DNA from: Flavobacteria bacterium MS024-2A
Lineage (GTDB): Bacteria; Bacteroidota; Bacteroidia; Flavobacteriales; Flavobacteriaceae
Length of the DNA stretch: 64,000 bases
Assembly: GCA_905182305.1 (NCBI GenBank)
Contig: CAJJBB010000006.1
Coordinates: 186,001-250,000, forward strand
Direction: 5' to 3'
Each line of letters opens with the position of its first letter. Within the stretch, counting starts at the first letter, position 1. Position numbers and translations under genes: made by a program. Below the pieces are notes generated by a model. It saw only the letters and a program-made list of their open reading frames with translations, did no database searches and was not told where the DNA came from. This document shows, piece after piece, positions 15,051 to 46,602 of this stretch.

Positions 15051-15052
15051 AT

Positions 15053-28148: not shown

Positions 28149-28184
28149 CCAGAACTTACTGAAGATGATATGCCTGTGGTTTAA
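28149..28184 (+). repeat. 36-bp repeat, copy 1
   Basis: Reads on the plus strand as P-E-L-T-E-D-D-M-P-V-V-stop. It ends 42 bp upstream of the start of the leftward gene at 28106 and abuts a terminator on its other side. Confidence 0.9.
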
Positions 28185-28209
28185 AAGAAAACCCTCCACT
28201 TGGGAGGTT
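28184..28209 (-). terminator. Rho-independent terminator
   Basis: Minus-strand stem AACCTCCC/GGGAGGTT-type hairpin (loop around AAGT) followed by TTTTCTTTT. It lies after the NTF2-like gene fragment and directly before repeat copy 1. Confidence 0.7.
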
Positions 28210-28234
28210 ATTATATACGTTGTTTAATTGGTTT

Positions 28235-28459
28235 TTAAAATTGATTCATATAAATAATTTTCTCTTCTTCAAAATTAAATATTTCCACCCAACTATAAGT
28301 CGATTCTTTCTAATCTGATGTAACGATTTTATCATTATCCCACAATAAAACACATTCGTCACCATTTTCTTTTGTTACTGCAAGATTTCCTGCTACTTGA
28401 TAGTCCTCAATCTCTATCGAAGAGTATCCAGATGATACATTTGTCAGGAATTTAATTCG
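28235..28459 (-). pseudogene. C-terminal remnant of an NTF2-like protein gene
   Basis: The frame from about 28459 to the TAA at 28235 reads SSGYSSIEIEDYQVAGN, then GDECVLLWDNDKIVTSD, an in-frame TAG at 28310-28312, and STYSWVEIFNFEEEKIIYMN. The pattern is that of the C-terminal half of a SnoaL-like protein. The N-terminal half and start are missing. It sits between two cassette-like units. Confidence 0.65.
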
Positions 28460-28489
28460 TTAAATTAATTATTTATAATTTCTTAAATC

Positions 28490-28945
28490 TTATATTTTCT
28501 TTTTTTCGCTCTTAAATCTTCGACTCTTATCTACTAAATCATTTAATATACCTATATGGCCCTCCTTTAGAGAGGTTTCGTTTAGTATTAACTTAGCAGA
28601 CTTAATGTCTTTTTCACTTAATATAGCTGACTTTAAAAACTCTTTATATTTATTTCGCATATTGTCAGTTACATTCATACTAGTAATTATAGAATGTTTT
28701 CTGAATAATTTAGCTCTATTATCTGCTTGAGTTTTTCTGTATTTAGATACATAATTACTATCATTTCTTTTCTTATTAAATACTCTATAATCTTTATCCT
28801 TATAAGTATATTGAACATCTCTAAATAAACTATCTCCATTTGTAATGAAGCTGATATGTTTATCTAAATCTGTTTTATCTTTAAATTCTTTTAAGTATTC
28901 TTTTTTTCCGCCTAAGAAAGTGTATGCTAATATCTTTATCTTCAT
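28490..28945 (-). CDS. Hypothetical basic protein, 151 residues
   Basis: Starts at ATG 28945 (MKIKILAYTFLGGKKEYLKE); an upstream in-frame start at 28981 is less likely. The protein is rich in Lys and Asp, has no signal peptide and no membrane helix, and looks mainly helical in its second half (KYKEFLKSAILSEKDIKSAK). I do not recognise a family. It follows repeat copy 2 in the leftward direction. Confidence 0.55.
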   Translation of the reverse strand: MKIKILAYTFLGGKKEYLKEFKDKTDLDKHISFITNGDSLFRDVQYTYKDKDYRVFNKKRNDSNYVSKYRKTQADNRAKLFRKHSIITSMNVTDNMRNKYKEFLKSAILSEKDIKSAKLILNETSLKEGHIGILNDLVDKSRRFKSEKKKI

Positions 28946-29095
28946 AGTTCTATTAAAAGTTAATTGCCAATGATATAACATTGATAATAACGCAAACTAA
29001 AATAATCTTACCTGGCAAACTATTCTTTACCCAAAAGGCTATCAGTTTACTAATAATGTTTTTTATGGTTAACAAGCTGTAAATATAATATAATC

Positions 29096-29128
29096 CCTCA
29101 ACTTACTGAAGATGATATGCCAACAATA
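29096..29128 (+). repeat. 36-bp repeat, copy 2 (diverged end)
   Basis: Reads P-Q-L-T-E-D-D-M-P-T-I-K with no stop at the usual place. It lies 7 bp from the stop of the gene at 29135 and upstream of the leftward gene at 28945. Confidence 0.8.
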
Positions 29129-29134
29129 AAAAGT

Positions 29135-30385
29135 TTAGTCTGGAGTATATCCCGATTCTCCTTGGTCATTATCTTGAAACATTGTTCTTAATACTTCCTT
29201 GTTTGGTATAGAGATTACTGGCTTGAAATATGTATTGTAAAGCTGGTAGCCCAAGGGATTATTTGCTAAAACACCTTCTGGGGTTCTGGCGTTGTCATTC
29301 CATTCTGGAGAAAGACTCCCTCCTTCCCAAAACTCACTAAATTCCCACATTCCATAAGTCAATAAGTACTGATATTCTTTTAGCATAACTGGCCAGGCAT
29401 CTCGATTGTTAATATCACCTCCATACCCTTCAATATCAAAAACACCATTATTGTGGGCTTCTTTCATTGCAAGAAAAACATCTGTATTGCTAACATCTTC
29501 TTCTTCAGCTTCTATATTTAATACTTCAGTTGAGCCTTCAACTCCACCTCTTACTCCAAAACGATGAAGAGTGTGAAGAGTATGCTCAATAATTTCATTG
29601 ATGTCATCATCACCTGTACCCCTGCTATCTATGTTTTTATACCAAACCATATCATCTAAAGTAAATTCATCTTCAAAAGCCTCTATACCGGGATAAAATT
29701 GATTGCGAGAATCTCCTAAAAAACCAGGAGAATATTCATTTCCACCACCCCTTGCAATTCGTTGACCAGAAGGATAACCTTGATGCCAACCAATTTCACC
29801 TTTAAGAGTTTTAATCATATTTAACTGTGCATCAGAATCAATTCCTTCTGAATCTTTGTCCATAAGCAATTTAAATAATTGTGCAGTTTTATATATCCAA
29901 ATATCAGGCACAGCTTGTTGACCTCCAATTTCACCTGCAGTTATTAATTTAATTCCATTAACATCTAATTCTCTATCATAAAAAATAACAGCCTCGATAG
30001 GTATTATATCTCCACTTGAATAATAGTTTTCAGATGAAACTACTAATTGAAAAAGAGCCTGAATTGTTTGATTTGAGTTTAGTGTAATTGTGATTGCTTC
30101 ATTTGTTGAGTCATTCCCATCCCATCCAACAAATTCATATCCTTCATTGGCATTAGCAGTGACTGAAACGGAAGTCCCATCATCAAATGTTCCACCATTA
30201 GTTACACTTCCACCATTTCCTGCTGTTACCGTTAAAGTATATTGAACAACTACTGGTTCTGGAGTTTCAGCTTCAGGCTCTGGAGTTATAGTTTGAACAG
30301 TATTAGTTGCTGCTTGTGTTTCTTCATCTGGTGAACAGCTAAAAAGAACTAATAAAAGGATAGGTATTAAAAATAGATTTTTCAT
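29135..30385 (-). CDS. Surface lipoprotein with a bacterial (InlB-type) repeat domain
   Basis: From ATG 30385 the product is 416 residues. A lipobox ends VLFSC. A Glu/Pro/Thr-rich linker follows, then one InlB B-repeat-like domain (about residues 45-115: TLTVTAGNGGSVTNGG, EGYEFVGWDG, NQTIQALF). The C-terminal 290 residues contain the His-rich segment EIIEHTLHTLHRFG and many Trp, which suggests a metal-binding or enzymatic domain I cannot name. It is likely a surface-exposed protein. An earlier start at 30418 adds residues before the lipobox and is rejected. Confidence 0.75.
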   Translation of the reverse strand: MKNLFLIPILLLVLFSCSPDEETQAATNTVQTITPEPEAETPEPVVVQYTLTVTAGNGGSVTNGGTFDDGTSVSVTANANEGYEFVGWDGNDSTNEAITITLNSNQTIQALFQLVVSSENYYSSGDIIPIEAVIFYDRELDVNGIKLITAGEIGGQQAVPDIWIYKTAQLFKLLMDKDSEGIDSDAQLNMIKTLKGEIGWHQGYPSGQRIARGGGNEYSPGFLGDSRNQFYPGIEAFEDEFTLDDMVWYKNIDSRGTGDDDINEIIEHTLHTLHRFGVRGGVEGSTEVLNIEAEEEDVSNTDVFLAMKEAHNNGVFDIEGYGGDINNRDAWPVMLKEYQYLLTYGMWEFSEFWEGGSLSPEWNDNARTPEGVLANNPLGYQLYNTYFKPVISIPNKEVLRTMFQDNDQGESGYTPD

Positions 30386-30434
30386 TTTATTGATTTTCAG
30401 ATAGTTAAATATAGCCATAATTTCTTAACTCAAT

Positions 30435-30506
30435 TTAACGCAAAAACAAAGGCAAGTCTAAACTTACTTTATTAGTAGCTCGTTTCGTTCTTGATAAAGT
30501 ATGTTG
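30435..30506 (-). pseudogene. 3' relic of a small mobile-element-type gene
   Basis: On the minus strand the codons read QHTLSRTKRATNKVSLDLPL and end FLR-stop. The pattern matches the end of the relic at 32668-32882 (QYTLPRMKQATNELSEGLPL, FV-stop). It is thus a truncated third copy of that small gene, lodged between repeat copy 3 and the lipoprotein gene. Confidence 0.6.
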
Positions 30507-30511
30507 TAATC

Positions 30512-30547
30512 CAAGACCTTAGAGAAGATGCTATGCCTGTGTTTTAG
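30512..30547 (+). repeat. 36-bp repeat, copy 3 (most diverged full copy)
   Basis: Reads Q-D-L-R-E-D-A-M-P-V-F-stop. Several bases differ from the consensus but length, frame and stop are kept. Confidence 0.75.
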
Positions 30548-30709
30548 TTATTCGTCTTGACTCCATTTTCTTACGCCAGCATACTTTTCAGGTATTCTAA
30601 AAGGTGAACCAGCGTCTACCCACTGTTGCTTATAATCACATTCTTCAGCATCACACTTACAGGGGTATACTTTGGTATATTTAGTATCTGTAAAGGTTAA
30701 TTGGAGATT
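30548..30709 (-). pseudogene. Cysteine-containing gene fragment
   Basis: A minus-strand frame without a start codon, ending at TAA 30548, reads TDTKYTKVYPCKCDAEECDY, then KQQWVDAGSPFRIPEKYAGV and RKWSQDE. It has coding character (three Cys, two Trp, good codon choice). I do not know the parent family. It directly follows the Lacal_2735-type gene. Confidence 0.45.
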
Positions 30710-30881
30710 ATTTTTTTTTCTTTAGTATTTCTATTTGTTTAGATACTTCCTCCGCTTCAAACGTTTTTTGGTCGCTCTTGCTTCTACTCGTTTTTGACAA
30801 GTCATATGCTTCCTTCAATAAGACTTTATATTTAATTTCAAGTTTTTCTGTTTCTGTTTTCTTTTTAAATATTCCTAACAT
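30708..30881 (-). CDS. Lacal_2735-type small protein, 57 residues
   Basis: MLGIFKKKTETEKLEIKYK followed by LLKEAYDLSKTSRSKSDQKT and FEAEEVSKQIEILKKKK. This matches the pattern of the Lacal_2735 family, small charged coiled-coil-like proteins found in Flavobacteriaceae whose function is not known. Start ATG 30881, stop TAA 30708. It is below common length cut-offs and lies in the accessory region. Confidence 0.75.
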   Translation of the reverse strand: MLGIFKKKTETEKLEIKYKVLLKEAYDLSKTSRSKSDQKTFEAEEVSKQIEILKKKK

Positions 30882-30961
30882 ATAGTTTATTATATTGAGT
30901 TTTAAATTATCGCCAAAACTACTAATTACATCTCAAAGTATAATAGATGGAGTTGAAGGGT

Positions 30962-31069
30962 TTAGTCTCCACCCCAACTATCTTGAAAAAAAATTCCCAC
31001 TCCTAATTCTGCCCACAGATAAAGAAAGAAAAAAATAATTAGAATGATTAGGATGTGTTTTTTTTTCAT
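30962..31069 (-). CDS. Small single-helix membrane protein, 35 residues
   Basis: From ATG 31069: a lysine-rich start (MKKKH), one transmembrane helix (ILIILIIFFFLYLW) and a short tail AELGVGIFFQDSWGGD. The motif WAELxVGIF at the helix end is familiar from tiny flavobacterial membrane proteins of unknown role. Stop TAA 30962. The frame crosses a run of eight T that would be prone to slippage. Confidence 0.6.
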   Translation of the reverse strand: MKKKHILIILIIFFFLYLWAELGVGIFFQDSWGGD

Positions 31070-31134
31070 TGTTTCAAATTATATTAAAAGGTAATAATTC
31101 TAAATCAAATTTTCAAGAAGGGAGTTAGGTGAGT

Positions 31135-31356
31135 TTAATCCACACAGAAAGTATATCCAATATTGTATTCATTAAAAGTTTTTTCACTCACAAGTGTTGA
31201 TGGATTTGCGCCATATTCAGATTCACTATATCTATCTCTATCTTTAAATTCAAAATAGTAAATTCAGTTTCCTCCATATTTATTAGAAATTTCAATGCAG
31301 TCAGGTTTTCCAGAGCTAAAAGTAAAACAAGTGATTAAATAGAGAAACTTTCTCAT
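31135..31356 (-). pseudogene. Small secreted Cys-rich protein gene with in-frame stop
   Basis: From ATG 31356 the frame reads a short signal-like start (RKFLYLITCFTFSSG), then DCIEISNKYGGN, an in-frame TGA at 31264-31266, and IYYFEFKDRDRYSESEYG to EYNIGYTFCVD-stop. A single base change (TGG to TGA) would explain the stop. The gene is a paralogue of the remnant at 51872-52062, which ends VDIYCVD. Confidence 0.65.
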
Positions 31357-31772
31357 TGATTTAAGGTTTACTCAAATATATAAATTCTATCACAAAGTTT
31401 TAGTGAATCCTCATTCCTTATACTACCTTGTGTTTAAAACTTAAAAGTATACCCTGTTACTTGGTTTAGAATTATAGTTACAGTAGAATAATAATGCAGG
31501 GATTTGGGGGGAGTAACACCAAAACAAGGTTGCTCACGGTTCCTTACCCCATTTCTCTGCAAAACTTTAGGTTAGGGTGGGCTTTGGTTTCATATCTATA
31601 AGTATTTATCCCACCTGATACCCTTTTATAGTTTTGCTTTAAAAGCAAACACAACCAGAAGAACGACAAGTATTACAAATAAAAATTTAACATATACCAT
31701 CTTGACAAGATTTAAAAATTACAATTACATATATCTTATTGATTTTGAATTGTTTATAAGGTAGTTAAAAAA
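31357..31772. other. Intergenic stretch with one possible micropeptide
   Basis: About 415 bp without a clear gene. The only item found is a minus-strand frame at 31626-31700 encoding a 24-residue hydrophobic peptide (MVYVKFLFVILVVLLVVFAF, then KAKL). Around 31500 there is a GC-richer patch (GGGGGGAGT) of no recognised function. Confidence 0.4.
31626..31700 (-). CDS. Possible 24-residue membrane peptide
   Basis: ATG 31700 to TAA 31626. The peptide is one hydrophobic helix with a Lys near each end. Such peptides can be membrane toxins or protein partners, but there is no independent support for expression here, so confidence is low. Confidence 0.3.
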   Translation of the reverse strand: MVYVKFLFVILVVLLVVFAFKAKL

Positions 31773-32194
31773 ATGAAGATAGAATTAGAGTTAAAGCAGT
31801 ACGAAGCTGAAAAACTAAGGAAAATGATAGGTATTCAGACAAACACCAAACCAGATATAGTAGTTAAATCTTTAATCAAGATGCTACTAAAAGAGTCTTC
31901 AACAAAGATGATTCTATTTATAATGGCAACTATTGCAGAGTGGGAACTTAAAAACACCAAAGAACTTAAAGCTGGAGGTATAGAACGTGCAAGGAAGAAT
32001 GGTAGGCATAAGAATAACGGTGGCAATAAACCTAAAGAAACAATAGAACAGTTTTCAATAAATCTAATGTACAGATGTGCTTAAAAGAACTAAAGAATGG
32101 CGAATCTATTAACCGTGCTTCAAAGATTGCAAGTGTATCGAACCCTACTGCTCAAAAGGTTTTAAAATTAGCAATTGCAGAAGGTTTAATATAA
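31773..32194 (+). pseudogene. Serine recombinase (resolvase) relic
   Basis: Residues from about 30 of the frame at 31773 read STKMILFIMATIAEWELKNT then KELKAGGIERARKNGR, the pattern of the long helix and the end of a resolvase catalytic domain. After a one-base frameshift near 32065 the HTH part follows (GESINRASKIASVSNPTAQK to GLI-stop at 32194). The N-terminal catalytic Ser region is absent; the first 40 residues (KIELELKQYEAEKLRK) look unrelated. So this is a fused and frameshifted remnant of a mobile-element recombinase, probably inactive. Confidence 0.7.
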
Positions 32195-32667
32195 CTCCGT
32201 GTTTTTCTTTATAGGCACTAAACTTATCTAACTTGTCTTTTTCTTCTAATCTCACTCCTTGTTTTGGCAGATGAAAAACTTAAAATTTTTGCAAGTGAAT
32301 CCAACAAGCTAATTGAATTTCTTGAAACGCTAAATAGCTTTTTCATTGTGTTGGTTTTAAGATGTTTAAACATAGCTAAAATCTTATAATTGTATTCTAA
32401 AATTAACAAATGAATATATCACTTAAAGAATTAAGAAAACTGCCGTTTAGAAATAATTATGAAGTTCTCTAAAAAATAGAGTACTACATTTTATTATTGT
32501 TTCATTGAAAGACCCAACCAAATGACACCAAAACCACCAATCATCATTAATACTGCGATTGATTTTAATAACATTATATTTTTCATAGTCCAAAAATAAT
32601 TTAAACAGCAGAGAAACAAAAATAAATCCTACTGCAATACTACCGCATTGAATTTATAATAACAGTT
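32195..32667. other. Intergenic stretch with gene scraps
   Basis: About 470 bp. It holds a 20-codon plus-strand frame at 32410-32472 (MNISLKELRKLPFRNNYEVL) that looks like a gene start cut short, a minus-strand frame at 32224-32409 with weak coding character, and the small membrane protein listed separately at 32494. Nothing else was recognised. Confidence 0.4.
32494..32586 (-). CDS. Small membrane protein, 30 residues
   Basis: ATG 32586 to TAA 32494. The sequence is one transmembrane helix with an amphipathic start: MKNIMLLKSIAVLMMIGGFG then VIWLGLSMKQ. Similar tiny proteins occur in flavobacterial genomes; role unknown. Its short length keeps confidence modest. Confidence 0.45.
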   Translation of the reverse strand: MKNIMLLKSIAVLMMIGGFGVIWLGLSMKQ

Positions 32668-32882
32668 ATGCCATGACCAAAAGGAAGCCCAAACAAAATA
32701 ACATCCGAAGTAAAAGAGAAACTACAACTACTTATAAACGATTTAATAGCTTCTTTAGATGTAAATGAGTATGTAACGCTAATCAGCGTATTAAGATGCT
32801 TCAAATAGCCTTACAATACACTTTACCAAGAATGAAACAAGCTACTAATGAATTAAGTGAAGGCTTGCCTTTGTTTGTGTGA
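32668..32882 (+). pseudogene. Relic of a small mobile-element-type gene (stop and frameshift)
   Basis: ATG 32668 reads MP, an in-frame TGA, then PKGSPNKITSEVKEKLQLLI and NDLIASLDVNEY. A frameshift near 32780 leads into NQRIKMLQIALQYTLPRMKQ and ATNELSEGLPLFV-stop at 32882. The restored protein would be a small basic DNA-packaging or mobile-element-type protein common in Bacteroidota mobile regions. Partial copies lie at 30435-30506 and 47101-47232. Confidence 0.65.
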
Positions 32883-32928
32883 TAAGATTTAAGGTATATT
32901 TATAAATAATCACTAATAATTTTTGATT

Positions 32929-33102
32929 ATGGATGATGATAAAAACAAATTAACATTTGAAAAACAGTTTCTTGATAATATTTCTAATTGGTTTTATGGA
33001 AGATTATATAGACGTCTTAAAAGTATGGGGTTAGTTTTATTTGGTATATAGATATTTTTAGAAGGCGTCTTTTTAACTGTAGTAGTTTACTATTTACTTT
33101 AG
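32929..33102 (+). pseudogene. Small membrane protein gene interrupted by TAG
   Basis: ATG 32929 encodes MDDDKNKLTFEKQFLDNISN then WFYGRLYRRLKSMGLVLFGI, a TAG at 33049-33051, and continues in frame IFLEGVFLTVVVYYLL-stop (33102). The second part completes a transmembrane helix, so the intact gene was probably 57 codons. The 40-residue form could still be made. Repeat copy 4 follows 13 bp later. Confidence 0.5.
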
Positions 33103-33114
33103 GGGCGTTTTCTT

Positions 33115-33150
33115 TTATACCACAGGCATATCACCTTCAGTAAGTTCTGG
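33115..33150 (-). repeat. 36-bp repeat, copy 4
   Basis: Minus-strand reading P-E-L-T-E-G-D-M-P-V-V-stop. It is preceded (plus strand) by GGGGCGTTTTCTTTTA, a terminator end also seen at 36.06 kb, and lies 87 bp before the Cys-rich gene at 33238. Confidence 0.88.
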
Positions 33151-33237
33151 GATTTATTTATCCAACAGATTAATTATAAATTAATTTAACAACTTGTCTC
33201 CAAGTTCAAGTGAAATATTTTTTTTATATTACTGATT

Positions 33238-33375: not shown

Positions 33376-33586
33376 GCTAATTGCATTACGTGAACTTAAT
33401 TTCTATCTCTAAATGTTTCATTTAATAAATGTTTGATTTAGGTGTAGTGTCAAATTATGCCTTTTAGTTACCGCTTCATTTGTCACATTACATCCGTAAT
33501 TTATATCTAAAAACTTTTAATTTCATAAATACAATTTAAGAGCATTTTCATAAACTGCAGTTCAAACCAACTAAAAGTAACATGTG

Positions 33587-34096: not shown

Positions 34097-34103
34097 AAAA
34101 CAC

Positions 34104-34139: not shown

Positions 34140-34156
34140 TATTAAACAATATTCAT

Positions 34157-35373: not shown

Positions 35374-35402
35374 CCTCTAATTAGTTTCAGAGAGTTTTCT
35401 TT
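35374..35402 (+). terminator. Orphan terminator before repeat copy 5
   Basis: CTCT...AGAG stem followed by TTTTCTTTT. No intact plus-strand gene ends here, so it is probably left from a lost unit. Confidence 0.5.
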
Positions 35403-35437
35403 TAAACTACAGGCATATCATCTTCAGTAAGTTCAGG
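35402..35437 (-). repeat. 36-bp repeat, copy 5
   Basis: Minus-strand reading P-E-L-T-E-D-D-M-P-V-V-stop with one silent change (GTA for GTG). It lies 71 bp before the ATG at 35509. Confidence 0.9.
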
Positions 35438-35508: not shown

Positions 35509-36016
35509 ATGAAAAAACTATTATTATTCAGCTTTATACTTTTTGTTGTTGCATCTTGTCAAGAGCCCGTTAAAGAAACGACACATCGGATTTCATCCAA
35601 ATCAAGACGAAGATGTTAAAAATACAGGGTGGTATTTAGGAACACAAGAAGCGGTTGATGTAGTCGTAGCTCTTGATAAAGTATGGAAAGAACGTAAATA
35701 TGATGAGGCTGTAAAATTCTTTTCCGATTCAGTTAGAATTACACCTCCAAATGGTAAAAGAGTTTTTTCTGCATCTGAATTTATGAATGGATTTAAAGAA
35801 AATGAAAATTCAAAACGAATTACTTGGGATATAACTTCAATCAATTCAATTGATATTTCTCCAAATACTGGAGGGGAACACGTTGGTGCTTGGTTCAATA
35901 TGAAGTATACTGATTCTGTTGGTAAAATTACTGAATGGCAAGGCTATGAAAGTTATTATGTAGTAGATGGGAAAGTTGTTTGGCTTGACCAGTTTAGACA
36001 GAATCCAATTCAATAA
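35509..36016 (+). pseudogene. NTF2-like lipoprotein gene with a frameshift after the signal peptide
   Basis: ATG 35509 follows the shared leader AATCATAAATCAATTAAA and encodes a lipoprotein signal (KKLLLFSFILFVVASC). The frame then closes after about 25 more codons. From about 35590 the body continues in another frame (TQEAVDVVVALDKVWKERKY, DEAVKFFSDSVRITPPNGKR, to NPIQ-stop at 36016), a good SnoaL-like domain. A 1-2 base indel near 35570-35600 explains it. The body could be translated from an internal TTG at 35543 but would lack a signal. A terminator follows. A sequencing error is also possible. Confidence 0.75.
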
Positions 36017-36136: not shown

Positions 36137-36661
36137 TTATCTTTTATAAGTTCCTTCAATTTGACTAGGAATACTACTTACATCAAACCAGTCTGCAAAA
36201 TCAAAAACTTTTCCGTCCTCGTTAAATCTTAAAACTCCCATCCATTTATAAGCTATATCAGCTCCTGACTCAGGATCGGTTAAAGACCAATTTCCATAAA
36301 CTCTAAGTGCATCAGGGGATGATGATGTTTGATCAGTAGAATAAAGACTTCCTCCATAATAATCATCTTTAGTAAATGTAATATTATCAAAATTATTTAT
36401 GTAGAAATTAACTGCTGCAGTAAGATCTGCCTTGGTTTTAGTAACTTCTATTAAGGCTTCAGGATTATTCCATTTTAAAGAATCAGCAAAAATGCTCATT
36501 ACTTTTTCAGGATCTTCTGAAGTAAAGCCATTAGCTGCCATTTTCCAAGTTTCTACATTTTTATTAAAAGTTGCTACATCCTCTTCTGAAGGACCAACAT
36601 TACTATTTGTACAGCTAGTAAATATTGGAATTGATAATAAGAAAATAAAGATTTTTTTCAT
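36137..36661 (-). CDS. NTF2/SnoaL-like lipoprotein
   Basis: A 174-residue protein with lipobox PIFTSC (Cys 17) and one SnoaL-like domain (NVETWKMAANGFTSEDPEKV, MSIFADSLKWNNPEALIE, RVYGNWSLTD). Such exported NTF2-like proteins may bind small hydrophobic ligands or act as isomerases or hydrolases; no catalytic set is evident. Its leader matches that of several other genes here, and repeat copy 6 ends 42 bp before its start. It is convergent with the frameshifted relative at 35509. Confidence 0.8.
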   Translation of the reverse strand: MKKIFIFLLSIPIFTSCTNSNVGPSEEDVATFNKNVETWKMAANGFTSEDPEKVMSIFADSLKWNNPEALIEVTKTKADLTAAVNFYINNFDNITFTKDDYYGGSLYSTDQTSSSPDALRVYGNWSLTDPESGADIAYKWMGVLRFNEDGKVFDFADWFDVSSIPSQIEGTYKR

Positions 36662-36703: not shown

Positions 36704-36739
36704 CCTGAACTTACTGAAGATGATATGCCTGTGGTTTAA
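36704..36739 (+). repeat. 36-bp repeat, copy 6
   Basis: Reads P-E-L-T-E-D-D-M-P-V-V-stop. It lies 42 bp upstream of the leftward gene start at 36661 and abuts a terminator-like hairpin (36740-36766). Confidence 0.92.
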
Positions 36740-36766
36740 AAGAAAGTCCTCTGACTAGGAGAGTTT
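36740..36766 (-). terminator. Terminator-like hairpin next to repeat copy 6
   Basis: Minus-strand stem CTCTCCTAGTCAGAGGA-type with a TTTCTTTT tail. No gene ends immediately before it, because a separate terminator at 36941 serves the next gene; it may belong to a lost unit. Confidence 0.5.
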
Positions 36767-36837
36767 GGGTTACACCTCTCTATGCCAGTTAACCCCTTAG
36801 GAAAACCCATACTCAATAAATTTCTAATACTATGATT

Positions 36838-36906
36838 GTCATTATATTAGATAGGACATTTGGGGTTCAATGAATGTAGTGTCTTATATGCTAAGGTTTG
36901 GGGTTA
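36838..36906 (+). repeat. About 70-bp inverted repeat, left copy
   Basis: Contains GGGTTCAATGAATGTAGTGT and AAGGTTTGGGGTTAC. Its reverse complement recurs at 44282-44350 with roughly ten to twelve mismatches over 70 bp. Confidence 0.85.
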
Positions 36907-36940
36907 CAAGGAAATTGAAATAAGGGCATTGGTGTAATAG

Positions 36941-36966
36941 AAAAACCCTCCGCTTAGGAGGGTTTA
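36941..36966 (-). terminator. Rho-independent terminator
   Basis: Minus-strand stem AAACCCTCC/GGAGGGTTT followed by T-rich sequence, 8 bp past the stop of the gene at 36974. Confidence 0.85.
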
Positions 36967-36973
36967 TGTATAA

Positions 36974-37651
36974 TTAGTTAAATCTTGCCAAAGTATTTAT
37001 GTAGTAGTTTTGGATATATTCAACTTTACCTCTGTCTTTTATATAATCACCGAAGCCTTTGGAGTTTCTGAATTTCCTCTCTAAGAGCACTAAGTCATTT
37101 AAACCTTTCCCATAAACTACAATACTGTGTGTCGCTCCCAGAGTTCCACCAGCATCAATTGAAAGTAACCCCATTCTTCTATCTCCAAGTATTGATTTGT
37201 TCTGTTTTACTATTTTATCAAAAGCTAATTTAAACTTAGCAGGTTCATGAACTTTTAAATCAAAAATTTTAGCAGATTTATTTTTACTTGCATCACCTTC
37301 GGAGAATCCAAGAGATGTTATTACACTACTATCGTTTGCAAAACTTAAATGATTATTTAATTGTTCTAGATAAGCAGTCCATTCAGAATCAGTTTTTTCT
37401 TGTTTTGCACCAAAATTTTCAGGATCTCCCCATGCAAGTACTCTATGAGTTACTCCATTTTTAAACTGAACAGATTGTAACATGACACCACTACCTTCAT
37501 TCCATTCATGACCTTCAGCAAAATCAGTGAATAAGTTCAATACAGAAGGCGCATGACCAGGCATAACCTTCATATTGTATATACGCCCTGAAGTTTGGGC
37601 ATTTACAAATACAAATAATAGTAAAAATACTATTGATAAAACATTTTTCAT
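36974..37651 (-). CDS. Secreted protein of unknown function, 225 residues
   Basis: A signal peptide ends FVNAQ. The body has two alpha+beta halves (RIYNMKVMPGHAPSVLNLFT, KIFDLKVHEPAKFKLAFDKI), each opening with a strand and followed by a long helix, like a tandem dimeric alpha/beta barrel. I do not recognise the family. The layout is close to the secreted protein at 27366. Repeat copy 7 lies 43 bp before its start, with the shared leader. Confidence 0.72.
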   Translation of the reverse strand: MKNVLSIVFLLLFVFVNAQTSGRIYNMKVMPGHAPSVLNLFTDFAEGHEWNEGSGVMLQSVQFKNGVTHRVLAWGDPENFGAKQEKTDSEWTAYLEQLNNHLSFANDSSVITSLGFSEGDASKNKSAKIFDLKVHEPAKFKLAFDKIVKQNKSILGDRRMGLLSIDAGGTLGATHSIVVYGKGLNDLVLLERKFRNSKGFGDYIKDRGKVEYIQNYYINTLARFN

Positions 37652-37694
37652 TTTAATTAATTTATGATTAATAATATTCTAATATAAACAAATC

Positions 37695-37731
37695 CCAGAA
37701 CTTACTAGAAGATGATATGCCTGTGGTTTAA
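37695..37731 (+). repeat. 36-bp repeat, copy 7 (one-base insertion)
   Basis: Same sequence as the consensus except for an extra A after ACT, which breaks the reading P-E-L-T... . It lies 43 bp upstream of the leftward gene at 37651. Confidence 0.88.
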
Positions 37732-37745
37732 ATGAAAATACTTTT

Positions 37746-38303
37746 TTAATGCCATTCCCAAATGATTATAACAGCTTCACTATTTTCCATTTTAATTGAA
37801 TCTATTATCTTAAATCCTACATTTAAGTGAGCTCTAATTGATCTCTTATTTTCTAAATCAACAACCGTTAAACAAAATGGATATATGGATGAATATTTAT
37901 TTTTAAAGAGCGTGTACATTTTTTTAACTATGCCCTGAGCTCTATGACTTGATGCTACACAAAGTTGTGCTACAATAATAAAATCAAATTTAGAGAGTTG
38001 TTTTGACTTATAAAATTTTCGATTAATTTTCATTATTAAATTTTTCAAAAACTCATTTCCTTCTGTCAATTTTTTTGTAGATGCTAATAGATAACCAACA
38101 ATTTCTCCTTCCACCACAGCAATAATTGAAGGAGATTTTTTAGTTATACTTTTTAAAAATGAAATTGAATAGCTAGCGGTTAAAAAACCATCATTAGATT
38201 TGATCGTTGAGGAAAGATTGTCTTTTAAGTTTTTTGACTGAAGATTTTTTACTTCTTTAAGCTGATTAAATGTTGTTATTATTTTTATTTCTGGGATATT
38301 CAC
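37746..38303 (-). CDS. GNAT-family N-acetyltransferase
   Basis: A 185-residue protein with the GNAT core: a strand with IIAVVEGEIVGYLLAS, then FIIVAQLCVASSHRAQGIVK, where the acetyl-CoA loop (Q/RxxGxG/A type) is in SSHRAQGIVKKM, and a final LNVGFKIID segment. It would transfer an acetyl group to an unknown small molecule or protein. No signal peptide. It stands alone between two cassette-type repeats. Confidence 0.8.
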   Translation of the reverse strand: MNIPEIKIITTFNQLKEVKNLQSKNLKDNLSSTIKSNDGFLTASYSISFLKSITKKSPSIIAVVEGEIVGYLLASTKKLTEGNEFLKNLIMKINRKFYKSKQLSKFDFIIVAQLCVASSHRAQGIVKKMYTLFKNKYSSIYPFCLTVVDLENKRSIRAHLNVGFKIIDSIKMENSEAVIIIWEWH

Positions 38304-38434
38304 TATGAAATATTTGAAATTTATGAGACTGAATAAAACATATTTCCTAAATTAAAGTACTTTTTTGATTTTAGTCGTTTTTAGTTTTTTTTAAATCTAG
38401 CTAAAAGGTTATTATTCAAAATAAAGTTATCGTT

Positions 38435-38470
38435 TTAGAACTTACTGAAGAAGATATGCCTGCGGTTTAG
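38435..38470 (+). repeat. 36-bp repeat, copy 8
   Basis: Reads L-E-L-T-E-E-D-M-P-A-V-stop. Changes against the consensus are conservative at the peptide level. Confidence 0.85.
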
Positions 38471-38484
38471 TTAGTTGGTCTTTC

Positions 38485-38502
38485 AGGCATATCATCTTCA
38501 GT
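38485..38502 (-). repeat. 36-bp repeat, copy 9 (partial, inverted against copy 8)
   Basis: Minus-strand reading T-E-D-D-M-P, then E-R-P-T-N-stop. With copy 8 it makes an 18-bp stem with one mismatch and a loop of about 21 bases. Confidence 0.8.
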
Positions 38503-38643
38503 CTTTATCCAATTAAACTCTATTTGATTTTGAGTAGCAACTTCTTTAGAAACATTAAAAAAGTAACGCCCTCTATATTATCTTTTTCAATTACCCCTTC
38601 CATTATTCACAAAACGGGTTTGACTTTATGATACTAAAACTAT

Positions 38644-39663: not shown

Positions 39664-39707
39664 ATTTTTAAGTCAAAGTCTAAACGATTTATAATTGATT
39701 AAGTTGA

Positions 39708-41024: not shown

Positions 41025-41035
41025 GTTGTTTTTTT

Positions 41036-43957
41036 TTAAAATTTAACATTAAGATTAAACATGTATTGTTTAGATGTAGGGAATGGAGTTACTTCTATCC
41101 CACTAGAGAGTCCTGAACCACCATTTGTAGAAGTTTCAGGATCATAACTTGAATAATCAGTTACTGTGATTAAATTTCTACCTGAAAGCCCTATTCTAAC
41201 ACTAGAAATATCTTTTGATATCCAACTTAGACTATTTACAGGAAGCGTATAATAAATTGCTGCCTCTCTTAAACGCATGTAGCTAGAGGGTTCAATGAAC
41301 CGCTCTGCAACAAAACCTAAGCCAGAACGGGTGGATCCCTCAGGAGTATCAAGATCAGGTGAAACACCTCCTAAATCAGTGAGCAGTCTAGATAAATTAA
41401 TGTTTTCACCTCCTTCTTTCCAATGAATAAGGAAACTTAATTCTAAATTTTTACCAATTGAAAATTGATTATTAAATGACATTTGAAAATCTGGCTCTAC
41501 ATCACCTATTTGAGTTGGAGTTCCATTAACATTACCCACTAATTGAGTAACAGGTTGACCTTCTTGAATGTAAAAAGTACCTAATCCCAAGCCAAATCCA
41601 GCTCCTGGCTGAGGAAAAGCAGGCACACCGAGACGTGTAACTTCAGATCTATTAAACCAAAACTGAACACCAGAATTCCAAGAAAAACTATTATTATTAA
41701 TTGCATCAATATTAATTCCTAATTCAATTCCAGAATTTTTTAAATCTGCAAGGTTCGTTGTCTCAGTTCCAAAACCGCTCGAGGTAGGGAGAGTTCTGCT
41801 AAGTATTAAATCTTTTACGTTTCTATCGTAGAAAGAGAGTTGAACGCCAATTTTATTAATTAAGCGAAAATCAATTCCAGCTTCAAATTCTTTTGAGGTT
41901 TCAGGTTCAATATCTTTATCTCCCTTAAGAGATGCAATGGTAGAACCACCAACACCACCAATAGATATCTGGTTTAAACTGGTAAAAACCGATCCAAAAG
42001 AAGCAGAGGAACCAGTTTCACCATAGGCAGCTCTTAATTTAAATTGATCAATTTTAGAAAAATTCCACCAATCAAAATTTTGTAAATTTATAGCTAGAGA
42101 TGCCTTTGGAAATCCATAAAATTTATTTGGATCACCATTTAGATTTGATTTATCAACACGATATCCTGCAGTTCCAATAAATTGATCTTTATAATTTCCT
42201 TCAATTTGACCAAAATATCCAAATTCTTTAATTAGAGATTGGGTCTGACTTATCGATTGAGCAGAACCCTGTCCAAGTGTAGTTTGACCAGGAATTAACT
42301 GGGTAGCTTGGTTAAATATTAAGTCAGTATCTTTTATTAAGTTTGAAATTCCTGCCTGAGTTGTTAATGCAAGGTCTCCACTAAAAGCATCGCGATTCCA
42401 AACTGCAATACCCATAAAATTGTAATTTTTAAAATTGTTTTTACCAACACCAATAAATCCATTATCAGCTCCGTTTTGAGCTTGATGTGATTCAGGCACA
42501 TATACATAGGTTTCATTAGCAAGAAAATCAATCCCTCCATTCCAAATCATACGAACTCTGTCTTTTTCACCATCATACAATTTAGTGGTTAGTTTAGCGC
42601 TTTGAATAAAACGATTATTATTGTTGTCATTTATTGCCTTATCTCTTACAAAAACAGGATTTCCAGAATAGTTAGGGTTATTGGGATATGTTCCAGTCGA
42701 ATCAGGATTTAAATTAATCCAAGGACGAGTGAAGGCAAGTGTATATCCATAACTTAAACCACCTTCGTTTTCATTACCTGTAAAACTTCTTCTTGATTCA
42801 CTTTGGGTAAAGTTTGAGGAAATAGATAGGTCAAAAGTATCTGAAATTTCATAGTCAATATTTGCTCTAATAGAGAACCTATCAAAACCAGTATTTTTAA
42901 TTATTCCATCTTCATCTCTGTATGAAGTACCAATAAAAAATTTAGTTTTTTCATTTCCCCCAGAGGCACTAATTTTAGAATCTGTAACTAAACCTTGCTC
43001 TCCATATATTAAGTCTTCATAATCAATTAGACCCGTTGGGCTGTTAACAGCTTGATTAAAAAGTTCAGCTTCAGTAGCGCCAAAAGCATCTGTAACACTG
43101 GCAGCAGTCCATGGTCGCATACCGATTTTCTTTAATATTGTATTAAACCCTACACTTTGGTTAAAATTAATTAAAGTTTTTCCTTCTTTTCCTCTTTTTG
43201 TTGTGATTATTACCACTCCAGCATTAGCCCTTGTTCCATATATCGCAGCTGCGGATGCTCCTTTTAGAACTTCTATATTTTCAATATCACTTGGATCTAT
43301 ATCGGCAAGACTGTTGGGAGCATTTTCTTCATTTCCTCTATTTGCTCCTGAAGCAAAACGAAGTCCTGAAGGTATTTCAGCATTATTTAAGTAAACTCCA
43401 TCAATAATATACAAGGGTTGGTTATTTCCGTTAATAGATGATATTCCACGAAGACGTAATGCAAATCCTCCTCCTGGTGCTCCTGACGAAGATGTAATAT
43501 TAACTCCTGTAACCTTACCGTATAATGCACCATCAATTGTACTCTGATTTGTCTTACCAACTAATTCCTCACTTGAAACTGTTCCAACTGCATTAGCAAG
43601 ATTACTTCTTTTAACACTAGTTCCTAAACCAGTAATTACAATTTCATCTAACTGAGTGTTAGATACGGACATGATTATAGAGAGATCACTATTCGAAATC
43701 TCTTGTCTAATGGTAGCATATCCGATGTAAGAAAAGATTAAGATGTCTCCTTGGTTAGCATTAACTTTAAAATTACCATCAAAATCTGTTATAGAACCTT
43801 CATTTGTCTTTTCAACAATAACTGTGACTCCAGGTATAGGATTTGAGTCTTCATCCATAACCATTCCAGATATTTGTTGAGCATTTAATTGACTGAAAAA
43901 AGTGAAAGTTAGAGTTAAAAATAAAGCTCCAAAAAATGATTTTTGAAATTTTTTCAT
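41036..43957 (-). CDS. SusC/RagA-family TonB-linked outer-membrane transporter
   Basis: A 973-residue transporter. Signal peptide ending LNAQQ, carboxypeptidase-like domain (about 27-105, with GMVMDEDSNPIPGVTVIVEK), plug (about 110-240, with LRGISSINGNNQPLYIIDG, the usual SusC signature, and EVLKGASAAAIYGTRANAGV), then a barrel ending NLNVKF. It imports a ligand delivered by the SusD partner. With the peptidase and SusD it makes a three-gene operon read leftward. No lesion is seen in this large gene, unlike many neighbours. Confidence 0.94.
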   Translation of the reverse strand: MKKFQKSFFGALFLTLTFTFFSQLNAQQISGMVMDEDSNPIPGVTVIVEKTNEGSITDFDGNFKVNANQGDILIFSYIGYATIRQEISNSDLSIIMSVSNTQLDEIVITGLGTSVKRSNLANAVGTVSSEELVGKTNQSTIDGALYGKVTGVNITSSSGAPGGGFALRLRGISSINGNNQPLYIIDGVYLNNAEIPSGLRFASGANRGNEENAPNSLADIDPSDIENIEVLKGASAAAIYGTRANAGVVIITTKRGKEGKTLINFNQSVGFNTILKKIGMRPWTAASVTDAFGATEAELFNQAVNSPTGLIDYEDLIYGEQGLVTDSKISASGGNEKTKFFIGTSYRDEDGIIKNTGFDRFSIRANIDYEISDTFDLSISSNFTQSESRRSFTGNENEGGLSYGYTLAFTRPWINLNPDSTGTYPNNPNYSGNPVFVRDKAINDNNNNRFIQSAKLTTKLYDGEKDRVRMIWNGGIDFLANETYVYVPESHQAQNGADNGFIGVGKNNFKNYNFMGIAVWNRDAFSGDLALTTQAGISNLIKDTDLIFNQATQLIPGQTTLGQGSAQSISQTQSLIKEFGYFGQIEGNYKDQFIGTAGYRVDKSNLNGDPNKFYGFPKASLAINLQNFDWWNFSKIDQFKLRAAYGETGSSASFGSVFTSLNQISIGGVGGSTIASLKGDKDIEPETSKEFEAGIDFRLINKIGVQLSFYDRNVKDLILSRTLPTSSGFGTETTNLADLKNSGIELGINIDAINNNSFSWNSGVQFWFNRSEVTRLGVPAFPQPGAGFGLGLGTFYIQEGQPVTQLVGNVNGTPTQIGDVEPDFQMSFNNQFSIGKNLELSFLIHWKEGGENINLSRLLTDLGGVSPDLDTPEGSTRSGLGFVAERFIEPSSYMRLREAAIYYTLPVNSLSWISKDISSVRIGLSGRNLITVTDYSSYDPETSTNGGSGLSSGIEVTPFPTSKQYMFNLNVKF

Positions 43958-44281
43958 AATTTTTTTGTTTTGTTATTACATTGAAGATGTCGAAACTAGT
44001 GATTTTTTTTTTTGTTAAAAACAATATTGGATAAAAAAGAAATAAAAGATAGAGTTTTTAAAAATATTAGCTTTAATAAAATTAATATTGGTACAGAATA
44101 AAAAACCTTTTAAAATTATAATAAAACACTCCCTAATAAATCATTTATTTACTAATCTTATTTTTAAGTGTTCAGAGAATAACTTTTCGTCTTTTTCAAA
44201 GAGGGATTGTATGATCTTTTCAATGATTATGGGTTTTCAGAATCGTTTTTTATATAGATACTAGTTCTTGAATCTAGTATA

Positions 44282-44350
44282 TAACCCCAAACCTCAGTAT
44301 ATAAGACACTACATACATTGAACCCTAAATATTATATCTAATGTATTGAC
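44282..44350 (-). repeat. About 70-bp inverted repeat, right copy
   Basis: Reverse complement of 36838-36906. The minus strand reads GGGTTCAATGTATGTAGTGT and GAGGTTTGGGGTTAT. Confidence 0.85.
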
Positions 44351-44382
44351 AGAAAGAGCATTATGGATTTATTGAGTAATAA

Positions 44383-44418
44383 TTAAACCACAGGCATATC
44401 ATCTTCAGTAAGTTTAGG
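44383..44418 (-). repeat. 36-bp repeat, copy 10
   Basis: Minus-strand reading P-K-L-T-E-D-D-M-P-V-V-stop. The plus strand then has the shared leader (TATTATTAATCATAAA), an ATG and only four more codons before a stop (44474-44491). Confidence 0.9.
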
Positions 44419-44473
44419 GTTTTACGTTTTTTTAACAATAGTTTTATGTTTGAGTATTATTAATCATAAAACA

Positions 44474-44491
44474 ATGAAAATAATTGAATAA
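44474..44491 (+). pseudogene. Empty cassette: leader and start codon with no gene
   Basis: The standard leader ends in ATG AAA ATA ATT GAA TAA. After it comes TTTTAGTGGCG, like the second half of the terminators at 36.05 kb. It looks as if the gene body was deleted between start and terminator. Confidence 0.5.
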
Positions 44492-44542
44492 AAGGCCTCT
44501 GTTTTAGTGGCGACCCTCTAGTTAACTCTCGGTGGTTTTTAT

Positions 44543-44722
44543 TTAGTCGCTTTTCTTAAAGTAGTATTTACGAATAAGCATATAAGCACCAAGACCAAAA
44601 ATAAAAGCACCTGTAGGATAGCCATTAAACTTGAAGCCATTACTTAAAAAATAATGTAATATGAGAAGTAATCCAATTGATGTATAAACTTCAGCTTCTT
44701 TTTTTTTAAAAAATCTCTTCAT
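44543..44722 (-). CDS. Small membrane protein, 59 residues
   Basis: From ATG 44722 (MKRFFKKKEAEVYTSIG). Two membrane helices (YTSIGLLLILHYFLSNG and GAFIFGLGAYMLIRKYYF) with a charged start. No family recognised. An upstream in-frame TTG at 44752 would add ten residues. It lies next to three further small membrane protein genes on the same strand. Confidence 0.6.
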   Translation of the reverse strand: MKRFFKKKEAEVYTSIGLLLILHYFLSNGFKFNGYPTGAFIFGLGAYMLIRKYYFKKSD

Positions 44723-44757
44723 ATCCCAAACATATTGGTCATTTTCTTTCAAATTAA

Positions 44758-44982
44758 TTACTGGATTTTATCAGTTTGAGCAGGATTATTAAGTTCTGGA
44801 GCAGAAATATTTTTATGAATATCAGTTAAGTTATTGCCCTGTATATCGTAAATGTCGCCAGTCCAAGAATCTATTATAAAAGATTCATTAACTGGAGATG
44901 GCAGAAACCTATTCGAAAATGATATTATAAGTGCTGAAATAATAATAGTGGTAGCAATTAAAAGAGTGGATTTATAATTCAT
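44758..44982 (-). CDS. Small membrane-anchored protein, 74 residues
   Basis: From ATG 44982 (MNYKSTLLIATTIIISAL), or ATG 45006 with eight more residues. One N-terminal helix, then an exported tail (ESFIIDSWTGDIYDIQGNNL) that includes a W-T-G-D motif reminiscent of short sequences about printed gene context but without a known family. Function unknown. Confidence 0.55.
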   Translation of the reverse strand: MNYKSTLLIATTIIISALIISFSNRFLPSPVNESFIIDSWTGDIYDIQGNNLTDIHKNISAPELNNPAQTDKIQ

Positions 44983-45060
44983 CAAGTAAAAATAGAACAA
45001 AGTCATAATACTACCTATAAATAAAGTAAATCGTTACTACAGATTATTTAGCACCCCCTT

Positions 45061-45450
45061 TTAATCAAGGGGTTTTTTTATAAACTCTCGGGTAGTCAAA
45101 ATCCAAGCAATTATTAAAGTAGTTCCAGCAAGAGGAGTAATAGGTCCGATCCAAGCTAATGAAAAAGAAAAATTACTTTTAAATGAAAGAATAAAAATAC
45201 TTCCTGAAAATGCAATTGTTCCCCATAGTATTAAATGGAAAATATACTTTTTTATTTTTGAAGTAGTAAAATCAATTGATGAAAGAACTAACAAACCTAA
45301 TCCTTGATAAATCAAATACCGTAACCCCACTTCGAAACTACTTAGTGATTCTGCACTGAGGATTTTTTTTAAATAATGACTCCCTAAAGCTCCAAGCAAC
45401 ATTCCCAAAACCATGAACAAACTTCCGAAAAAACGCATTTTTGTTTTCAT
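45061..45450 (-). CDS. DUF423 membrane protein
   Basis: A 129-residue protein with four predicted helices and the N-terminal pattern LGMLLGALGSHYLKK typical of DUF423 (YwdK-like) proteins, followed by FEVGLRYLIYQGLGLLVLS. Widespread family, function not established. The stop codon lies in a strong hairpin (45055-45077, CCCCTT/AAGGGG) whose T-run is on the plus strand. It is 5 bp downstream of a small membrane protein gene. Confidence 0.88.
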   Translation of the reverse strand: MKTKMRFFGSLFMVLGMLLGALGSHYLKKILSAESLSSFEVGLRYLIYQGLGLLVLSSIDFTTSKIKKYIFHLILWGTIAFSGSIFILSFKSNFSFSLAWIGPITPLAGTTLIIAWILTTREFIKKPLD

Positions 45451-45455
45451 TAAAA

Positions 45456-45644
45456 CTATTTGTTTTTTGTAAAGTAATTATTTTTCCAAAGGAAAAACAT
45501 TATTAAAAAAGTTGCTGTAAAAAAGTATTGAGAAGTTTCATTAAACGGGTCTAGGAAGTCAGTTTTATAGTCAACATCCGAAATTCCGATAAGAAACAAA
45601 ATGATTGCTGTGATAAAAGGGAAATGCTTTAAATGCTTTTTCAT
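45456..45644 (-). CDS. Small membrane protein, 62 residues
   Basis: MKKHLKHFPFITAIILFLIG, an exported loop with DVDYKTDFLDPF, and a second helix (YFFTATFLIMFFLW) with a lysine-rich end. Two helices, no known family. Co-directional with and 5 bp upstream of the DUF423 gene. Confidence 0.6.
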   Translation of the reverse strand: MKKHLKHFPFITAIILFLIGISDVDYKTDFLDPFNETSQYFFTATFLIMFFLWKNNYFTKNK

Positions 45645-45962
45645 ACCCCAAAGCTAAAAAAATGTTTTAAGGTTATCTAACTCTTTGTCTCCATATGTCT
45701 TACTGGCTTTAAAACTAGACCCTTAATAGGTTTCTTAAGAGTATATATATATTGGGAACCCTTAACATCACCCTATGGAATATTTAGACGGACTAATAAA
45801 CACCAGATTGAAGCCTTCAGATAAGGTCAAAGGGAGCTTTTAATAAATTAACTGAGACCATTTGTGACTTTTAAAATACGATTGTTTACTATTCCATGTT
45901 ATTTCGTATTATTTTAACGTGAAAACAGAACCTGTAGCTTCGATTTATTTTAACTTTGGGGC
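45645..45962. other. Intergenic stretch between divergent small membrane protein genes
   Basis: About 318 bp. Both flanking genes start from it, so it should hold two promoters. TTTATTTTAACTTTGGGG at 45946-45962 is close to the plus-strand start. I see no gene, repeat or hairpin that is convincing. Confidence 0.45.
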
Positions 45963-46151
45963 ATGGAAAAATACACAAATAGAGCTGCAATAATTTTGTA
46001 TATAAATATGTTGATTGGTCTTACTCATGGACTACATGAATTAGAGGTGATAAATTTTGTTCCAGATTCTTATTATTTTATAATTCCAGTATCTTTCTTA
46101 CTTACTTTCGCTATCTGGAATGCTTTATTGGTATTCGATAAAAAGAAATGA
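45963..46151 (+). CDS. Small membrane protein, 62 residues
   Basis: MEKYTNRAAIILYINMLIGL with two helices and the sequence THGLHELEVINFVPDSYYF between them, ending VFDKKK. It overlaps the DUF983 gene by 4 bp (ATGA), indicating translational coupling. No family known to me. Confidence 0.65.
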   Translation: MEKYTNRAAIILYINMLIGLTHGLHELEVINFVPDSYYFIIPVSFLLTFAIWNALLVFDKKK

Positions 46152-46537
46152 GAAAAATACAATCCATTCTCTTTTTAAAGTGCCCAAGGTGTCGAAAGGG
46201 GAGACTATTGGTTGGACACCCCTATCAACTGAGAAACCTTAATAAAGTTAATGAAAGCTGTACCGCTTGTCAACTCAACTTTAAAATTGAAACAGGTTTT
46301 TTCTATGGGTCAATGTACGTTTCCTATGGCCTAGGAGTGGCTTTAAGTATTAAAGTTTATATATTTCTTTCACTTTTAGGAATGGTGGATAAACCCCTCA
46401 ATATCTTTTTTATCATTTGTGGAACCCTGATTGCTTTAATGCCTTATATCAACGCCTTATCCAAGGTGATTTGGGCAGGATTATTTCTTAAATACGACCC
46501 TAACTCTCTGAGAAAAAAACCTCTAATAAATAAATGA
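46148..46537 (+). CDS. DUF983 membrane protein with zinc ribbon
   Basis: A 129-residue protein with an N-terminal CPRCRKG and a later CTAC pair that form a zinc-ribbon-like head, followed by FKIETGFFYGSMYVSYG and two membrane helices. DUF983 is widespread in Bacteroidota and alphaproteobacteria; its role is not settled. Start ATG 46148 overlaps the upstream stop. Confidence 0.9.
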   Translation: MRKIQSILFLKCPRCRKGRLLVGHPYQLRNLNKVNESCTACQLNFKIETGFFYGSMYVSYGLGVALSIKVYIFLSLLGMVDKPLNIFFIICGTLIALMPYINALSKVIWAGLFLKYDPNSLRKKPLINK

Positions 46538-46566
46538 GAAAACAAATCTGTTAGGTTGACTTGTTA

Positions 46567-46602
46567 CTAAACCACAGGCATATCAACTTCAGTAAGTTCT
46601 GG
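46567..46602 (-). repeat. 36-bp repeat, copy 11
   Basis: Minus-strand reading P-E-L-T-E-V-D-M-P-V-V-stop (TAG). No leader or gene follows in the expected direction; the end of the DUF411 gene begins 34 bp on. Confidence 0.88.

Follow-up and report, generated by a model that had tools for sequence, protein, structure and literature searches.

The window analysed here, a stretch of 64,000 nucleotides from contig CAJJBB010000006.1 of Flavobacteria bacterium MS024-2A, carries in its middle part a dispersed element of about 33 bp. The element reads as the end of a protein (PxLTExDMPxV and a stop codon) and is, in all likelihood, the site of a gene-cassette platform worked by a tyrosine recombinase on the tail of its own gene. 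A scan with the pattern CTTACTGAAGANGATATGCC, with up to 3 mismatches allowed, gave 10 matches, all within 28155-46596, whereas 100 shuffles averaged 0.03. A further copy, the eleventh, starts at 37695; it has a one-base shift and lies outside these matches. The repeat described in a first-pass annotation of the window is thus real, and so are its two orientations and the stop in register in nine of eleven copies (all except 29096 and 38485). The remark that no copies lie outside this 18.5-kb stretch holds for the window only, since the same scan of the whole genome gives 50 matches (2 for the reversed pattern) and a sequence profile (E<=0.01) gives 58 copies, on contigs C1, C3-C8 and C10.

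Site copies in the window, with the peptide read in frame:
28152..28184, plus strand: site copy, PELTEDDMPVV and stop; upstream of a minus-strand gene starting at about 28106
29099..29131, plus strand: site copy, LTEDDMPTIK, without a stop in register
30515..30547, plus strand: site copy, LREDAMPVF and stop; followed by an A-piece (see below) in gene sense
33115..33147, minus strand: site copy, LTEGDMPVV and stop
35402..35434, minus strand: site copy, LTEDDMPVV and stop; upstream of a plus-strand gene starting at about 35510
36707..36739, plus strand: site copy, LTEDDMPVV and stop
37695..37731, plus strand: site copy, LLEDDMPVV and stop, one-base shift
38438..38470, plus strand: site copy, LTEEDMPAV and stop
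38476..38508, minus strand: partial site copy, KTEDDMPERP, without a stop in register
44383..44415, minus strand: site copy, LTEDDMPVV and stop
46567..46599, minus strand: site copy, LTEVDMPVV and stop

The element lies between a terminator-like hairpin and the promoter and 5' untranslated region (5'UTR) of the next gene, and its orientation usually follows that of the adjacent gene. The 5'UTR sequence TATTAACCATAAATCAATTAAAATGA has 4 matches in the window, every one beside a site. A 97-nt sequence near two sites (36810-36906 and 44282-44378) forms an inverted repeat at 82%. The segments closed between two sites, termed cassettes here, and further cassette genes are the following:
28185..29098, minus strand: closed cassette, gene 28490-28981, no Pfam match; homology to locus L072 over about 580 bp
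29132..30514, minus strand: closed cassette, gene 29135-30385 with an InlB-type repeat domain; also in genome G007 (L080), 93% identity over 1370 bp
35510..36016, plus strand: cassette gene, SnoaL-like by a weak Pfam match; the frame is interrupted close to its start
36137..36661, minus strand: SnoaL-like cassette gene, promoter side at site 36707
36740..37694, minus strand: closed cassette, gene 36974-37651, no Pfam match
37732..38437, minus strand: closed cassette, gene 37746-38303 GNAT-like (Pfam E 0.0024, just under the cut-off); also found in full length in G007, 90% identity

Integrase genes, their tails and the arrays downstream

Sequence comparison identifies the site with the 3' end of an integrase gene. 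A search of the genus for tyrosine recombinases found several genes adjoining sites, and the integrase genes L168, L106, L169, L170 and L171, together with the broken gene L172, end in the site peptide (GHSSINVSLTYLRGLEIPELNEEDMPMI and close variants, then the stop). Integrases elsewhere end in GHSSINVSLTYLRGLEIPELTEEDMPVV or ELNEEDMPMI; the latter closes the L168, L106, L170 and L171 proteins, and QLNEEDMPIL that of L169. An intact frame ending much like the window peptide LTEDDMPVV, as the first-pass annotation had envisaged, is found at L273:7294-8352 (minus strand; ELTEEDMPVV), with four more tail copies downstream, on a contig identical to a Cryomorphaceae metagenome-assembled genome (MAG) record. 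The site coincides with the last codons and the stop of the integrase gene, just after the catalytic tyrosine. The early suggestion of a mobile module that brings along a gene's 3' end is therefore supported, the gene being the integrase, and so is that of a recombination site, which would appear to be the same thing.

Across 28 aligned members of the integrase family the catalytic Arg, His and Tyr (Y335) columns are invariant, as are D348 and P350 of the tail, and the first His of the HxxRH motif is replaced by Tyr (YSFRH). The proteins of L236 and L238 run past the tail, and those of L243 and L244 depart before it is complete. All five integrases compared match PF00589, the tyrosine recombinase catalytic domain (E 1e-10 to 7.2e-13). 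A structural model from the 28 sequences, with a predicted local distance difference test score (pLDDT) of 86.2, a predicted template modelling score (pTM) of 0.58 and low confidence for the tail after the Tyr, comprises an N-terminal three-stranded sheet with a helix, a helical domain and the catalytic domain; a model from just 6 sequences had been poor (pLDDT 58.8). In a Foldseek search, the closest folds to the 28-sequence model are lambda integrase (1z1b, E 1.6e-9), Tn1549 Int (6emy, E 7.2e-9) and, at rank 8, IntI4 (2a3v), while the best chain by sequence profile is a Xer-like archaeal protein (E 3.2e-9). With a threshold of E<=1e-20, members of the integrase family occur in 19 of 397 sampled genomes of the host family (14 of 237 genera) and in 23 of 395 genomes sampled in the order, in families f7, f8, f11 and f15.

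Arrays of sites follow such integrases in the sequences compared. The integrase tails were used to search 36 integrase loci; one further locus is open at a contig end, and L168 and L170 stood outside the search, their contigs ending 19 and 99 bases past the stop. Downstream copies of the tail in the same orientation occur in 12 loci and number 30 in total: six in L106, five in L171, four each in L248 and L273, three in L247, two in L287 and one each in L169, L276, L279, L284, L286 and L289. A single copy lies upstream (L240) and seven are opposite (one in L241, the others in L245, taken up below); the control with reversed tails gave 1 match in 33 of the 36 loci. The integrases that head arrays have frames open to the end. 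Array sites are mostly nearest to the tail of their own lineage, as in L248 and most other arrays examined; in L247, other tails are equally close or closer to two of the three sites downstream.

When integrase bodies and tails were compared in 90-nt windows, L171 of this genus and L240 of another agreed at 86-99% in the ten windows from the start but at only 78 and 75% in those that follow, and L168 and L238 (again another genus) at 83-96%, ending at 78%. Within the genus, the bodies of L170 and L171 agree at 34-72% over the first ten windows, rising to 92 and 97% at the end; for L168 and L171, an agreement of 94% is confined to the last window. Bodies and tails are thus mosaic, in that unrelated bodies within a genus carry one tail type and near-identical bodies across genera can differ sharply at the tail.

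At the other end of the gene, a tRNA gene or truncated tRNA lies about 15-75 bp from the integrase start in 7 of 10 loci (Rfam search). These tRNAs are of several isotypes and on both strands, and related pieces lie upstream of further integrases:
L106:6323-6390, tRNA or truncated tRNA upstream of integrase
L168:1110-1183, likewise
L169:7592-7650, likewise
L170:1211-1286, likewise
L239:18841-18910, likewise
L247:11725-11797, likewise
L248:10009-10078, likewise

Right before the start codon, L247, L248, L169 and L240 have short near-direct repeats (for example ACTGACAGTAATAACTGACAGT) that may be arm or operator sites. A second tyrosine recombinase lineage lies directly beside sites in L093 (433-906 region), where its stop is about ten bases before the site, and in L167, where the gene is interrupted by a stop.

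The copies themselves retain a coding-like pattern. Over 213 distinct sites, private changes number 168, 124 and 201 at codon positions 1, 2 and 3 (10, 10 and 9 positions available), frame and stop are kept in register at 166, and a premature stop is found in 8. The bias is real but modest. The repeat does recur in several islands of the chromosome, yet not with random disruption of its frame. Such a bias would be expected if sites pass through the first position of an array, and common descent and protein binding could contribute. As proposed, the copies would keep the frame because the enzyme would receive its last codons and stop from any cassette that is inserted at the integrase end. Left of the core, 199 of the 213 sites keep none of the integrase's codons (wrong-frame control, 0), and most copies have no reading frame upstream, which, with a site of about 33 bp, leaves the micropeptide once considered for this element without support.

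Cassettes and their proposed movement

Sites are clustered in the genome, and several clusters are of a single orientation, such as the ten plus-strand matches at 150-163 kb of C1. The profile (E<=0.001) detects copies in 33 of the 38 genomes of the genus, a set with one genome per species, and copy number differs strongly between related species, a variation that the first-pass annotation had proposed looking for. A single-variant pattern has a match in 21 of 100 relatives. Among named genomes the exact degenerate pattern occurs in 49 stretches, the titles of which are all Flavobacteriaceae, Flavobacteriales, Cryomorphaceae or Bacteroidetes; these are mostly marine MAGs and single-cell type records, one of them Flavobacteria bacterium MS024-2A isolate FRAM18_bin210. 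Exact matches to a degenerate 20-nt site pattern in seven viral contigs (L160-L166, viral_contigs) may be due to chance, and a viral carrier was rejected, as the 72 pattern matches obtained in viral_contigs included no integrase relative.

In 68 regions of the genus, chosen for holding sites, 229 sites were recognised at up to 8 mismatches. Adjacent sites within 3 kb share their orientation in 138 of 154 pairs (16 are opposite), so that, as in integrons, one type of site stands in constant orientation along the array. The closed cassettes (n=142, median 853 bp) hold one or a few small genes without an integrase, and each cassette has its own promoter. In 121 of 136 closed cassettes the longest open reading frame (ORF; at least 50 aa) runs antiparallel to the integrase frame; the listed cassette genes of L247 point toward the integrase, as do most of those in L273, where the three nearest the integrase run with it. 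The promoter is directly adjacent to the site, about 30 bp farther away, or about 70 bp farther away with an additional A-piece, and conservation is highest in the core rather than in the promoter.

The A-piece, found between core and promoter in 41 of 152 listed sites (for example L090:79, L061:15805 and window 30450-30510), matches the 3' end of a small gene, of which an intact copy (L061:13784-13993, 70 aa) has no Pfam or PHROGs match. In several copies it is flanked on both sides by AGTAAGTTC, and the 5' part of the same small gene is present twice in the window (32657-32775 and 47090-47208, 85%). Another array of the same genome, L063:6018-15510, contains an intact serine resolvase (14884-15510) and other mobile genes, among them a 435-aa protein without a Pfam match and a frameshifted ORF pair, both of which look like tyrosine recombinases by eye; a fragment at window 31773-32200 resembles the L063 resolvase, again by eye. 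A serine resolvase was rejected as the responsible enzyme, because an intact one was found in this one array but PF00239 in just 2 of 38 genomes.

Cassettes recur as units in the sequences compared. The ends of BLAST blocks (at least 150 bp) fall within -60 to +90 of a site in 479 of 1790 cases, a zone that makes up 4.4% of bases (reciprocal matches counted twice). Cassettes match end to end in 12 pairs, from 7 distinct cassettes, one of which is present in four copies. Homology of the upstream neighbour is absent in all 9 assessable pairs and that of the downstream neighbour in 9 of 11, with 38 and 29 bp in the other two. A two-gene unit is common to L273 (family f11) and L247 (family f1), with 83% and 86% protein identity. 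The genomes G030 and G001, of different species, have one cassette in common, 99.6% identical over 567 bp, and nothing outside it; identity begins inside the core, the outer halves differing by two adjacent bases, with agreement from CATATCC on. Where a pair shares only its promoter-side flank, likeness sets in at about position 24; where it shares only the terminator-side flank, likeness extends to about position 0, and the signal between is mixed.

The element would thus be the recombination site of an integron-like gene-cassette platform of the Flavobacteriales, in which a three-domain tyrosine recombinase carries the site at the very end of its gene, where it forms the final codons and the stop behind the catalytic tyrosine. 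Site-bounded cassettes, each with promoter, gene and terminator, are stacked at the integrase 3' end in one orientation, with most genes pointing back toward it. The recombinase would act on two sites, with strand exchange inside the core and probably with circular intermediates, so that a cassette would enter or leave as a unit. Crossover is predicted inside the central GATATGCC block, without fixing the base because the signal over all sites is mixed, and each cassette captured at the integrase end would supply a new tail of last codons and stop.

Several observations weigh against this mechanism. The integrase family was not found in the window's own genome G000, which is 86.5% complete, or in G001, which has 29 sites; since no family integrase was found there, the arrays of both look orphan, although for the window's genome the integrase may lie in the missing part of the assembly. 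No downstream copy was found in 24 of the 36 integrase loci, where several contigs end nearby and about five tails are altered, which weakens the test, and six opposite-orientation copies lie in L245. L106 and L239, from two genera, have similar bodies yet the same tail (91%). Crossover mapping over all sites is noisy, and the linkage of site positions is too confounded by species to fix the crossover. Some shared blocks end outside sites, including those of L067/L072 and L061/L072, which end away from recognised ones. Excision, circles and insertion were not observed among genomes representing one species each, and a clean pair of empty and filled sites was sought and not found: the flanks of G000 and G023 are 98.5% alike around arrays of 5.6 and 1.2 kb, with breakpoints that are not simple, and the comparison of L103 with L106 looks like loss of a site.

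An unlikely alternative is tandem accretion, whereby complete elements with this integrase were repeatedly inserted at one attachment site and decayed to integrase 3' ends. The longer integrase remnants at eight or so sites (14 of 213 when the integrase genes themselves are included), several further 3' fragments genome-wide and the tRNA genes or fragments adjoining integrases would fit such a history. It agrees poorly with the sites that keep nothing of the integrase left of the core, with the small size, few genes and lack of integrase of the closed cassettes, and with an integrase-less cassette at 99.6% between species. It is still less probable that short repeats spread together with common promoters and terminators, and that cassettes were exchanged by homologous recombination or natural transformation with no dedicated recombinase. 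The promoter/5'UTR sequence and terminators that cassettes have in common, and the integrase not found in the window's genome, are in keeping with this, but it fails to explain why the repeat equals the coding end of an integrase, why arrays start there and why the tail type follows the host genus, and the core, rather than the promoter, is the most conserved block. A regulatory operator of a regulon of secreted-protein genes, suggested by sites upstream of many promoters and by the common 5'UTR, is highly improbable given the variable promoter distance and the copy at the array end that is integrase coding sequence.

Relation to known gene-capture systems

The cassette platform proposed here works like an integron, yet by the features tested it is not one. 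Integrons, the textbook system of gene-cassette capture, likewise combine a tyrosine recombinase gene with small cassettes that form a tandem array beginning beside it and are bounded by one short site in constant orientation, and the orphan arrays resemble CALIN (clusters of attC sites lacking integron integrases). The recombinase differs from IntI by model score, five integrases having 17-28.3 bits on TIGR02249 (cut-off 265) and one 14.1 on NF011946 (cut-off 435), and its three-domain model is lambda-Int-like. The site is also different, being about 33 bp long, the coding 3' end of the integrase and without a hairpin signal near the core: in a general folding test rather than an attC model, on 60 sites sampled per setting, the mean folding z lies between -0.02 and 0.26 with core +-8 and +-20, and is -0.37 and -0.60 with core +-40, which includes terminator hairpins. 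R''/R' boxes of the attC kind were looked for by eye and not seen. An IntI-type attC site was rejected on the lack of a hairpin signal near the core and on the low IntI scores. The cassettes differ in having their own promoters and in mostly pointing toward the integrase. XerC/XerD were rejected as the recombinase as well: the integrases score at most 33.6 bits on TIGR02224 (cut-off 335), the XerC-like gene beside one array is the chromosomal copy linked to rpsU, and the two Xer-like genes are of general occurrence. Linkage to rpsU is standard for the chromosomal XerC-like gene.

Lambda and Tn1549 integrases, the best structural matches of the model, serve single mobile elements, and no cassette arrays are known at the 3' ends of their int genes. 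With the archaeal suicidal (SSV-type) integrases the present family shares an attachment site inside the integrase's own gene, here in the last codons and stop. In the archaeal case integration splits the gene. The present hosts are bacteria with stacked cassettes, and, because the site is confined to the final codons and the stop, an insertion would exchange the tail while the gene stays complete. In the available portion of PMC8371274, integrases whose own gene contains the site are described for archaea alone. In the rulB integron-like elements of Pseudomonas, the accessible part of the report states that no attI-like site was found, and it reports no arrays of repeated sites.

Integrons are rare in Bacteroidetes; excerpts of one source describe them as having been thought nearly absent, with one complete case in Salinibacter ruber (PMC9024848), and excerpts of another list Bacteroidota among the phyla that have them (PMC8618304). 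For flavobacteria related to MS024-2A, a variable region beside tRNA-Arg has been taken as a putative genomic island, in a paper whose available text does not contain the word integrase (PMC4164334). No description of such a system was found in open-access PMC text, subscription papers and preprints lying outside the search.

The chances are about even that these arrays represent a second, independently built class of gene capture beside integrons, spread across the Flavobacteriales, in which each captured cassette rewrites the C-terminal tail of the capturing enzyme. If so, part of the enzyme would be encoded in the integrase-adjacent cassette, which could tune the enzyme's next reaction, and a lineage of integrase bodies that reaches a new host would acquire the tail of that host's cassette pool. 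The integron-like platform would, if this reading holds, explain a hypervariable part of these genomes and provide a marker for cassette pools in metagenomes. It would also be a clear example of an enzyme that takes its last residues from its substrate. The small-genome marine flavobacteria would then possess a functional counterpart of integrons of non-homologous design, built on a short, double-strand-type site in the coding end of the recombinase and on cassettes with their own promoters and opposite polarity.

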